A stretch of DNA of 39,507 nucleotides from NCBI GenBank assembly GCA_003284375.1, contig QBVL01000015.1, positions 1 through 39,507 of the forward strand, in the 5' to 3' direction. How positions within the stretch are numbered: the first letter of the stretch is position 1; the number at the start of each line of letters is the position of its first letter. The stretch comes from Prochlorococcus sp. AG-311-J23. GTDB lineage: Bacteria > Cyanobacteriota > Cyanobacteriia > PCC-6307 > Cyanobiaceae. The notes under the pieces were generated by a model. The model searched no databases. It had not been told where the DNA came from and saw only the letters and a list, made by a program, of their open reading frames with translations. Of this stretch, positions 8,059-38,657 are shown in pieces. A program made the position numbers and the translations under genes.

Positions 8059-8161
8059 GCTTGAATGGCGGTCTGCCTTTTTAGAACAGTTCGATAGAAA
8101 TACAAAATGGCCCGCCGACCAAATTGAAATTAAATTCTACTTTATAGATAGGTCTTTCTAG

Positions 8162-32835: not shown

Positions 32836-32915
32836 GCTCAAGTCCCCGTTCCTTGGCTTGAGTCAAACTGCGGCTCATCATTTGATGAGTTGAACGTTTT
32901 AGTAGCTTTTACTAC
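32836..32915 (-). promoter_or_regulatory. Structured leader of the DUF4278 gene
   Basis: Immediately upstream of the ribosome binding site, three short inverted repeats follow one another: ctcaag/cttgag at 32837-32842 and 32857-32862, ctcatc/gatgag at 32873-32888, and gtag/ctac near 32901-32915. On the minus strand they would form a row of hairpins in the 5' UTR. No promoter is certain. Confidence 0.4.
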
Positions 32916-36724: not shown

Positions 36725-36915
36725 GCCGCTTCCTTCTCTCCAAAATCAGGAACCATCAATACGTCTTCTATCTCTTCAGAAAGAGGGTTATACATCCACT
36801 CACCCATCTCACACAAAAGGTGGAATCTCTCTTCAGCTTTGAGGGATTTTATGCGCTCGCAAGCATTCACCACGCATTCATCCATTGCTTGCATTGTTGT
36901 TGGTTCCTTTCTCAT
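36721..36915 (-). CDS. Unknown small acidic protein
   Basis: This 64-residue protein is mostly helical and acidic (KSLKAEERFHLLCEMGEWMY near the middle). It has no known family. Its start overlaps the stop of the recombinase gene by four bases (ATGA), and its stop overlaps the next start in the same way, so three genes are tightly coupled. An internal ATG at residue 8 is an alternative start. Confidence 0.6.
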   Translation of the reverse strand: MRKEPTTMQAMDECVVNACERIKSLKAEERFHLLCEMGEWMYNPLSEEIEDVLMVPDFGEKEAA

Positions 36916-37547
36916 ACCTCTATCACCACATCTTGTTCAACAATAATTCTTCTAATGGTTGATAAGGCAAGACCAGTTTGTTTCCTGATTGATCTGTAAG
37001 AACATCCTTCCTCTCTTAACCGCAAAACCAATGCCTCTTTTTCATTATTGGTCTTTGGTCTTCCTCCAAGATTTCCTCCTGTCTCTCTTCTGTGGTTAAT
37101 GGATTCTTGCGTTCTCTCGATCACCATCTGACGCTCAACTTGTCCGATTCCACTTAAAAGACCAATCACAATTGGAGCAAACTTTCCAAGAGCACGAGTA
37201 TTGATCATCCCATCGGTTGTACGAATATGGATTCCACGCTCTTGGAGGTCATGAAGAGTATCAATGCATTGCCTCTGATTTCTAAAACCTCTATCCAACT
37301 TCGTGAAAACAATTTCATCTCCTTCTTCAAGCTTTCCTAATGCTGCCTCAAATTGAGGTCTTGCTTTATTTGCACTTGAAACAGTCTCTTGGAAAACAAC
37401 AACGCAACCTGCTTTCTTTAACTCTTCAACTTGAGCGCCAATAGGTATTTGTTTATTAGCGGACTGCCTCGCATACCCGAGACACTTGTACTCAGGTTTA
37501 TCTCTGAATAATGGTCTTTCTCTTTGGAACTTAGTTCGTGTTTTCAT
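36912..37547 (-). CDS. Serine recombinase (resolvase/invertase family)
   Basis: This 211-residue site-specific recombinase has the catalytic serine in LGYARQSANKQ (about residue 29), and the conserved TKLDRGFRNQRQ region with its active-site arginines near residue 85. A long linker helix (GQVERQMVIERTQESINHRR) precedes a C-terminal helix-turn-helix (GRPKTNNEKEALVLRL, then RSIRKQTGLALSTIRRI). All parts of an active small serine recombinase seem present. The N-terminus is about 15 residues longer than in Tn3-type resolvases. It leads three coupled small genes. The crossover site and mobile unit are not identified. Confidence 0.9.
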   Translation of the reverse strand: MKTRTKFQRERPLFRDKPEYKCLGYARQSANKQIPIGAQVEELKKAGCVVVFQETVSSANKARPQFEAALGKLEEGDEIVFTKLDRGFRNQRQCIDTLHDLQERGIHIRTTDGMINTRALGKFAPIVIGLLSGIGQVERQMVIERTQESINHRRETGGNLGGRPKTNNEKEALVLRLREEGCSYRSIRKQTGLALSTIRRIIVEQDVVIEV

Positions 37548-37554
37548 CTGTTCC

Positions 37555-37572
37555 AGAAACTATGGTGTTTCT
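37555..37572. promoter_or_regulatory. Inverted repeat upstream of recombinase gene
   Basis: AGAAAC and GTTTCT form a perfect 6-bp inverted repeat with a 6-base spacer, starting 8 bases upstream of the recombinase ATG. A second pair, GTTCCA at 37550 and TGGAAC at 37618, flanks it. These may be binding sites of the recombinase acting as its own repressor, or parts of a crossover site. Confidence 0.4.
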
Positions 37573-37776
37573 TGTTGAATTGCTTATGTCATTATTTTAG
37601 CAAGAAAACAGTCTTATTGGAACATTGCAACCCTTTTAATCCAGATTTTTAATAATATCCAATTGAGCAGTCTATGAGTTTGATTACCGTCCCCTTTTTT
37701 GGAACACAAATTTTTTCCCAATATTCAAGAGATTGTTTTTGTTGTTGCTATCTTCGTCTTGGTATATAAGAATAGA

Positions 37777-37840
37777 TATACAGAACAACTCCTCACACAT
37801 AGTTCTGTACCAAAAGGGCATCCAATAGGGTGCTTTTTTA
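37777..37840 (+). ncRNA. Candidate small RNA with Yfr1-type loop
   Basis: A hairpin, TACAGAAC (37779-37786) with GTTCTGTA (37802-37809), holds a 15-base loop containing ACTCCTCACAC at 37788-37798. That is the exact 11-base core of the cyanobacterial small RNA Yfr1. A second hairpin (GCATCC/GGGTGC) with a run of six T ends at 37839. Upstream, TTGTTG near 37740 and TATATA near 37764 sit at promoter-like spacing. In classical Yfr1 the core lies single-stranded between two hairpins, whereas here it lies in a loop. It is therefore a relative or look-alike rather than certain Yfr1. Confidence 0.6.
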
Positions 37841-37866
37841 GTGCCTTTGCACCAGTAACAATCAAT

Positions 37867-37886
37867 AAGCCCACCTGGTAGGGCTT
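37867..37886 (+). terminator. Weak terminator-like hairpin
   Basis: AAGCCC and GGGCTT pair around an 8-base loop, followed by a T-rich stretch (TTTGTTCTT). It lies between the two candidate small RNAs and may back up the first terminator. Confidence 0.35.
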
Positions 37887-37913
37887 TGTTCTTGATCCTG
37901 TTCCGATAAATTC

Positions 37914-38010
37914 CGTTTGTTAGAAGTCGAGATCCTTCGCAGTCGAAACAAGGAAACTCTTGCGCTTGATCTCACGAAGAAACGCCCTGGCAAGACTGGG
38001 CGTTTTTTTT
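37914..38010 (+). ncRNA. Candidate small RNA of the Yfr2-5 type
   Basis: A hairpin pairs GAGATC (37929-37934) with GATCTC (37968-37973) and, after a symmetric CTT/CTT bulge, CGCA with TGCG. Its apical loop shows GAAACAAGGAAAC (37945-37957), close to the doubled GGAAACA loop described for Yfr2-Yfr5. A strong terminator follows, AAACGCCC with GGGCGTTT and then T-run, ending at 38010. GATAAA at 37905 is a possible -10 site, giving an RNA of about 95 bases, the size expected for the family. The start is inferred. Confidence 0.6.
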
Positions 38011-38032
38011 GTGTCTTTCCTAGAATGATTTG

Positions 38033-38146
38033 ATGATATTTCCGCCTCCACAAGTTGTTTTTGGACTTTTGCTTTTAAGCATTGCAGCGACTTTGATTTT
38101 TAATGTCAGATACAACCCATTTGGAAATAGCGAAGACGACATCTAA
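38033..38146 (+). CDS. Small single-helix membrane protein
   Basis: This 37-residue protein begins MIFPPPQVVFGLLLLSIAAT, has one membrane helix, and ends in an acidic GNSEDDI tail. I do not recognise it. Its composition, clear helix and polar ends are typical of the many small membrane proteins of picocyanobacteria. There is no strong Shine-Dalgarno sequence. It follows the terminator of the candidate small RNA. Confidence 0.5.
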   Translation: MIFPPPQVVFGLLLLSIAATLIFNVRYNPFGNSEDDI

Positions 38147-38170
38147 TTAGGAATAATTTCCGATTCTTCT

Positions 38171-38300
38171 CTTTGTTGATTGGATTAGAAAAGTAAAAGC
38201 AGAACAACTCCTTACCAGTATTAGTTCTGTTGACAGAAAAGAAGGGGGCTCAAGGTCGCTGATGCAGCAGGGTCCCTTTCTTAATGTCAAAAAATAAGTA
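38171..38300 (+). repeat. Hairpin element related to the Yfr1-type RNA and to 33330
   Basis: CAGAAC (38200-38205) and GTTCTG (38224-38229) form the same outer stem as at 37781 and 37802, and the loop begins AACTCCT as in that RNA, then differs. Upstream bases 38171-38200 match 33330-33360. Downstream, 38236-38284 can form another long hairpin of about 13 pairs including G-U pairs. This may be a third small RNA or a degenerate copy; it lacks a clear T-run. Confidence 0.4.
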
Positions 38301-38360
38301 ACTTGACTTCCTAGGTAAGTGTAGTACATTTGTATTGACTTAATCCCTCGTCGCAGACGC

Positions 38361-38394
38361 AAAAGGAGGATCCAGTGAGCAGGATCCTTTTTTT
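38361..38394 (+). terminator. Rho-independent terminator
   Basis: AGGATCC (38367-38373) and GGATCCT (38382-38388) pair around an 8-base loop and are followed by a run of seven T. No gene ends nearby on the plus strand, so it may end an unseen short transcript from the 38200-38360 region. Confidence 0.75.
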
Positions 38395-38414
38395 GTCTCT
38401 ACATGAGGAGGACT

Positions 38415-38657
38415 ATGACATGGTCAAGGAAATCAAGATTCGTTTCGCCTGTAGAGGTTCTAGAGAACCCTGAAGAGTAGAAATACTTCACTGACTTGGA
38501 ACTTATGAAGTCCAGGGGTAGTTCGATTTGTATGACATGCGAACACTTCACATACAACTGAGACAAGTCATGCGTAACTCTTCTAACTTATCCTCTTCAT
38601 CAGCGTCTTATTCCTCAAGGTGAACATCTAACCAAGCGTTGTAGGAATTGGCAATGA
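38415..38657 (+). pseudogene. Decayed zinc-ribbon-like small protein gene
   Basis: A strong GAGGAGG precedes the ATG at 38415, but one frame runs for 80 codons with two in-frame stops (TAG at 38478, TGA at 38559) before the final TGA at 38655. The protein-like content continues after each stop: C-M-T-C-E-H-F, then DKSCVTLLTYPLHQRLIPQG, then EHLTKRCRNWQ. A CxxC followed by spaced C and C-x-x-W suggests a small zinc-ribbon protein. I read it as a recently inactivated gene, since the frame itself has no shift. An alternative is two or three separate tiny genes. Confidence 0.5.

Follow-up and report, generated by a model that had tools for sequence, protein, structure and literature searches.

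Does a short hairpin that lies beside a recombinase gene of Prochlorococcus, and that displays the core motif of the small RNA Yfr1 in its loop, represent a new kind of RNA or one already described? We considered this question for positions 1 to 39,507 of contig QBVL01000015.1 (Prochlorococcus sp. AG-311-J23, assembly GCA_003284375.1), a stretch of 39,507 nucleotides hereafter called the window, in which the core ACTCCTCACAC occurs once, at 37788-37798 on the forward strand; 0.02 occurrences are expected per dinucleotide shuffle, and 2 of 100 shuffled sequences contained it. In the predicted fold, an 8-bp stem (arms 37779-37786 and 37802-37809) closes a 15-nt loop (37787-37801) that contains the core, as an earlier note on this DNA had described, and this hairpin (37779-37809, +) is followed by a 12-bp stem and a U run, in agreement with the terminator placed there by the same note. 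This predicted intrinsic terminator (37812-37839, +) is kept in sequence in most copies of its class and is absent from the list returned by a terminator scan of the window. The segment 37777-37840 folds at -21.7 kcal/mol (z -4.84), a value that none of 200 shuffled sequences equalled or bettered.

The hairpin could first be read as the canonical Yfr1 gene (RF01116), with which it shares the identical 11-nt core and for which repression of a porin is demonstrated (PMC6778093). Canonical Yfr1, however, has its core single-stranded between two hairpins and occupies a single locus, guaB-trxA, whereas the core of the window sits in a loop, its neighbours are a resolvase gene and a Yfr2-family gene, and RF01116 has no match in the window or in its assembly. 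A separate Yfr1 is moreover recognised by RF01116 in 29 of the 41 genomes of the genus, where Yfr1 and Yfr10-type hairpins coexist, and the copy at locus L043 lies between an ORF that we take to be guaB and a thioredoxin-like ORF. Structure and locus have thus already refuted this reading, which we consider scarcely conceivable. The search for a canonical Yfr1 elsewhere in the genome, which the earlier note had proposed, was made and found none, and guaB was likewise not found in the assembly, so that loss is not implied. The 12 genomes of the genus without RF01116 also lack guaB, except for a contig-end stub in G037, and guaB is present in three control genomes that have Yfr1; because the genomes without Yfr1 are also without a full guaB, the absence of Yfr1 here is an assembly gap. 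The idea that Yfr10 replaces a lost Yfr1 was dropped for this reason.

The scaffold is that of Yfr10 (RF02362), whose Rfam consensus consists of an 8-bp stem and a 15-nt loop with the core inside. The earlier note had regarded the scaffold as new, but published Yfr10 already has this motif of Yfr1 displayed in the loop of a hairpin (PMC2518516, PMC6778093), and the RNA that was noticed is therefore real in form and known in kind. According to PMC2518516, Yfr10, Yfr12 and Yfr18 of strain MED4 carry the motif (exactly in Yfr10 and Yfr18, as in Yfr1, and with two changes in Yfr12) and adjoin Yfr2, Yfr4 and Yfr5, a 270-nt species is listed from which both Yfr10 and Yfr2 would derive, and ncRNAs cluster in genomic islands. 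Yfr10 with Yfr2 downstream is described for high-light strains in PMC6778093 and for MED4 in PMC2518516, and the former also describes the display of the core in the loop of Yfr10 and reports mRNA targets of MED4 Yfr10. The window shares with Yfr10, and with Yfr12 and Yfr18 of MED4, the motif ACUCCUCACAC exposed in the loop of a stem of about 8 bp (predicted fold), its own terminator immediately after, giving a total length within about 60-80 nt (terminator and length both predicted), a Yfr2-family gene directly downstream (a diverged copy below the cut-off of its model) and a location in a variable region. It differs from Yfr10 in its stem (CAGAAC/GTTCTG as against AUCAGAAA/UUUCUGAU in the Rfam consensus), in occurring in several copies per genome, in adjoining a resolvase gene and in being followed by a second hairpin with another core. 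It also scores below the Rfam cut-off: RF02362 matches 37779-37849 with 26.2 bits and E 0.22 at a permissive threshold, under the gathering cut-off of 43, and at the gathering cut-offs neither Yfr10 (37779-37849) nor Cyano-1 (37913-37977) is listed for the window. We take the low score as divergence from a narrow model and not as the failure of a biological feature, and consider it very probable that 37779-37839 is a gene of the Yfr10 family of low-light Prochlorococcus, encoding an RNA of about 60-65 nt whose function would resemble that of its MED4 relatives.

A model, R1, was built from 12 hairpins of the genus, the window's included. At E 0.001 it matches 23 of 251 sampled genomes of the family, 16 of its own genus and 7 of other genera (7 of 235 outside the genus), and because the remaining 228 have no match, R1 is mostly a genus-level model. 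At the matched loci of other genera, RF02362 scores 81.8 bits (L133) and 43.9 bits (L132), both above its cut-off, and 41.3 (L130), 35.4 (L134) and 32.6 bits (L131), below it; in L133 and in L132 the two models match one and the same hairpin, and in L133 Cyano-1 then follows. Up to E 0.5, RF02362 lists nothing in 7 of 12 loci (L128, L129, L142, L144, L085, L093 and L107), five of which carry an R1 hairpin. In all seven R1 loci of other genera the predicted fold places the core in a loop that is closed by 7-9 bp, and the letters of the stem differ, for example ATCAGAAA/TTTCTGAT and ATTAGGAC/GTCCTAAT.

Within the genus, a search at E 0.1 gives R1 matches in 39 of the 41 genomes, including 17 of the 17 good ones, with up to ten copies per genome among the matches listed. 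The earlier note had proposed a second RNA with the Yfr1 core; another such RNA does exist, but the number was understated, as the assembly holds five of these hairpins among the matches listed (two in the window, one on contig C18 and two on contig C10). The 44 loci chosen around R1 matches yielded 104 matches, from which three rows were dropped, two that gave listed hairpins on the opposite strand and one that was an artefact, its loop measuring 45 nt; 101 hairpins were left. The loop core is invariant in the nine copies first aligned (three from the same genome and six from five relatives) and varies over the 101 hairpins, chiefly in one subclass. In the alignment of the 104 matches (58 distinct), which was fitted to the structure by the model, 92.8% of cells are paired and four of the eight pairs are changed on both sides; covariation reaches 0.211, as against 0.149 in shuffled alignments (0 of 500 reach it) and 0.014-0.071 in slid ones, and 64 of 500 shuffles have at least as many doubly changed pairs. 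The conserved loop and covarying stem that the earlier note had named as support are borne out. By their flanks and terminators the hairpins fall into three groups, A (with 37779 of the window), B and C (38 rows, with 38198 of the window). For 57 of the 101 hairpins, a Yfr2 core is found no more than 600 nt downstream; by the classing rule, such a core follows 21/21 hairpins of A, 35/35 of B and 1/38 of C; the rule is crude, as that one row of C belongs elsewhere and seven rows stay unassigned. In this low-light genus, Yfr10 forms a family of multiple copies whose flanks fall into three classes or more.

Upstream of the first hairpin lies a -10-like TAAGAAT (37767-37773, +), a motif that recurs before hairpins of the genus: T[AT]A[GA]AA[AT] is found inside positions -16 to -9 of 56 of the 101, starting at -13 in 32 and at -12 in 25 of the 57 placements. 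As to the promoter-like boxes claimed earlier, a consensus sigma-70 scan gave no site at the first hairpin and, in 37500-38500, a single one at 38303-38330.

What looks less ordinary is that a resolvase often accompanies Yfr10 in the relatives and that the usual partner RNA is altered here. The recombinase cassette noticed alongside is indeed present, as a serine resolvase gene at 36912-37547 (-), divergent from Yfr10, with a Pfam Resolvase N-terminal domain (PF00239, 1e-25) and a C-terminal HTH (PF02796, 22.8 bits, slightly under the cut-off of 23.8). Eighteen resolvase matches are listed in 14 of the 41 genus genomes (1e-40), six further loci (L020-L025) being taken as genomes already counted. 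Nine of the 18 are at least 85% identical to the window's; eight of these have upstream sequence, the ninth lying at a contig edge, and all eight show the exact core in a divergent hairpin, at 218-240 bp from the start of the resolvase match in the seven that are whole. Among the more distant resolvases, a hairpin or core is found within 300 bp of those on C18 (77%, broken), G035:C4 (66%) and G035:C24 (59%, core ACTCCTCACTC) and at about 700 bp from that of G036 (58%); none is found within about 1.5 kb of five others (G035:C1, G029, G024, G037:C6 and G006), nor at the homologue of an archaeal MAG (L026). In other genera, the 26 of the family's resolvase matches that were returned as loci include seven with a divergent core (at most one mismatch) at 219-248 bp, having different stems (CGACA/TGTCG, GAGA/TCTC, CGAA/TTCG) and a clear Yfr2 core after two of the seven; by the same rule 19 of the 26 have no core, and one of them, L153, shows a core that is altered further. 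Because related loci are not independent, these linkage counts are given without a probability.

Between the two genes lies a res-like region (37549-37706) with three TGTTCC/GGAAC[AG] sites, TGTTCC near 37549 and GGAACA near 37619 and 37701. At least two such repeats occur in 8 of 12 loci of the genus and in 19 of the 25 outside it, where mononucleotide shuffling gives 0.12 and 0.18 per shuffle, respectively; L036 and L042 have none. Since the repeats are present whether or not a Yfr10 lies nearby, they go with the resolvase. One could suppose that the hairpin itself belongs to the resolvase system, as a site or leader controlling recombination, and is not a trans-acting sRNA, given that in two groups of genomes a divergent hairpin or core recurs about 220-250 bp away, separated from the resolvase by res-like repeats. 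Most Yfr10 hairpins of the genus are, however, away from any resolvase (hairpin in 39 of 41 genomes, resolvase in 14 of 41 at 1e-40), the repeats persist at resolvases that have no Yfr10, and MED4 Yfr10 has reported mRNA targets (PMC6778093), all of which make this supposition very unlikely.

The Yfr10 gene may be linked to the resolvase in another way. We suggest, as a conjecture that is more doubtful than probable, that the resolvase, its res site and the Yfr10-Yfr2 pair make up a single unit, retained or reassembled across Prochlorococcus genera, in which the recombinase would spread, duplicate or remove copies, site-specific recombination would set the dose and ratio of regulator and sponge, and the copies would then either diverge in their core, as in the ACTCCTTACC subclass, or be left without their sponge, as in the window. 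The conserved resolvase neighbourhood would offer a testable route for the multiplication of RNA pairs in genomic islands. No report linking Yfr10 to a resolvase or recombinase was found in the open-access papers searched, and no resolvase relative was found in the viral contigs searched. A second resolvase copy, with two stops, lies beside an intact Yfr10-Yfr2 pair at G000:C18:32610-33062 (-).

The Yfr2-family gene of the window (37913-37977, +) aligns along the entire model of Cyano-1 (RF01701), which we take to be the Yfr2 family, with 35.1 bits as against a cut-off of 41. Compared with its relatives, it has GTTAGAAG for GTGAGGAG, CCTTC for CCTCC, GTCGAAACA for GTGGAAACA and CTC for CAC, and both its Yfr10-pairing site and its inner stem are changed. 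Over 57 cassettes, the energy predicted for pairing between the Yfr10 loop and the 5' part of Yfr2 ranges from -30.4 to -3.9 kcal/mol (median -21.1), and the cassette of the window is the last of the 57 (-3.9 kcal/mol, the next worst being -9.2), so that by predicted pairing the 5' site complementary to the Yfr1/Yfr10 core is missing from 37913-37977. Yfr10 of the window is nevertheless predicted to pair with the Yfr2 RNAs of C18 and C10 at -21.0 to -24.6 kcal/mol. In one cassette of C10 the situation is inverted, the Yfr10 core being damaged and the Yfr2 site intact.

According to PMC6778093, Yfr2 binds Yfr1 and Yfr10 and, in E. coli, repression of a porin reporter by Yfr1 is undone by Yfr2. 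By analogy with MED4, the exposed ACUCCUCACAC would pair with GUGAGGAG-like sites of mRNAs and change their translation or stability, and Yfr2 RNAs would titrate Yfr10 by pairing with the same core. In MED4, the ppa footprint of Yfr10 is lost once UCCU in the loop has been changed. As the local Yfr2 is predicted to pair poorly and those of C18 and C10 well, sponging would need a supply in trans, and the mismatched pair could serve as a natural experiment on whether sponging works in cis or in trans.

The lost pairing site and inner stem of this Yfr2, together with the broken C18 resolvase with its two stops and the ORF remnants seen by eye at 38418-38640, would also suit a decaying duplicate, that is, a non-functional relic of a Yfr10-Yfr2 cassette in an island made by the resolvase. 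Against such decay stands the intact state of the hairpin, its core, the -10-like box and the terminator, all of them nearly the same as in the copies that relatives carry, and we hold a decaying duplicate to be improbable compared with a Yfr10 gene in working order. One change of the window's Yfr2, which falls in the GGAG/CTCC helix, has a compensating change as judged by eye, so that a drift toward another partner may have occurred. A search of the assembly for an orthogonal partner of the changed loop (ACTTCTAACA) gave five matches, one of which is Yfr2 itself and none of the others of which lies in a hairpin loop (folds by eye); this candidate was rejected.

The second Yfr10-type hairpin of the window (38198-38231, +; R1 38.9 bits) has the core ACTCCTTACC and is followed by a terminator-like stem in the predicted fold. 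It would be a paralogue whose core has been altered and whose targets have presumably shifted. In class C, to which it belongs, 21 of 38 hairpins have a CTCCTTACC-type core and nine the usual one, and 21 of the 38 are preceded on the same strand by an A or B hairpin no more than 1.2 kb away, in most cases at 419-447 nt. By its letters, the CTCCTTACC-type core would be complementary to TAAGGAG, a Shine-Dalgarno-like sequence. Hairpins with a ACTCCTTACC core and no Yfr2 after them occur in L086, L087, L091, L104, L118, L120 and others as well as in the window, about 420-450 nt behind a Yfr10-Yfr2 pair, and this subclass is possibly a separate sRNA with shifted targets. At L024 (4901-5763, -), a stretch of about 0.9 kb contains a Yfr2 together with three hairpins or loops in which the core or a near variant appears; one of the three differs in its stem (TTCTCT/AGAGAA) and has a loop of 24 nt.

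Between Yfr2 and the second hairpin, a possible ORF of 37 aa (MIFPPPQVVFGLL...; 38033-38146, +) was noticed by eye; it is membrane-like, and its DNA is conserved in L093, L094 and L095. The small ORF of which 38418-38640 appears by eye to be a remnant is whole in L143 and L152, right after the resolvase repeats. Elsewhere in the window, a cyanobacterial ribosomal protein S1 leader (8065-8149, -) scores above the Rfam cut-off and a glutamine-II riboswitch occupies 32837-32899 (-); another glutamine-II riboswitch is found in L107 (147-209, -), about 170 bp from a Yfr2 gene.
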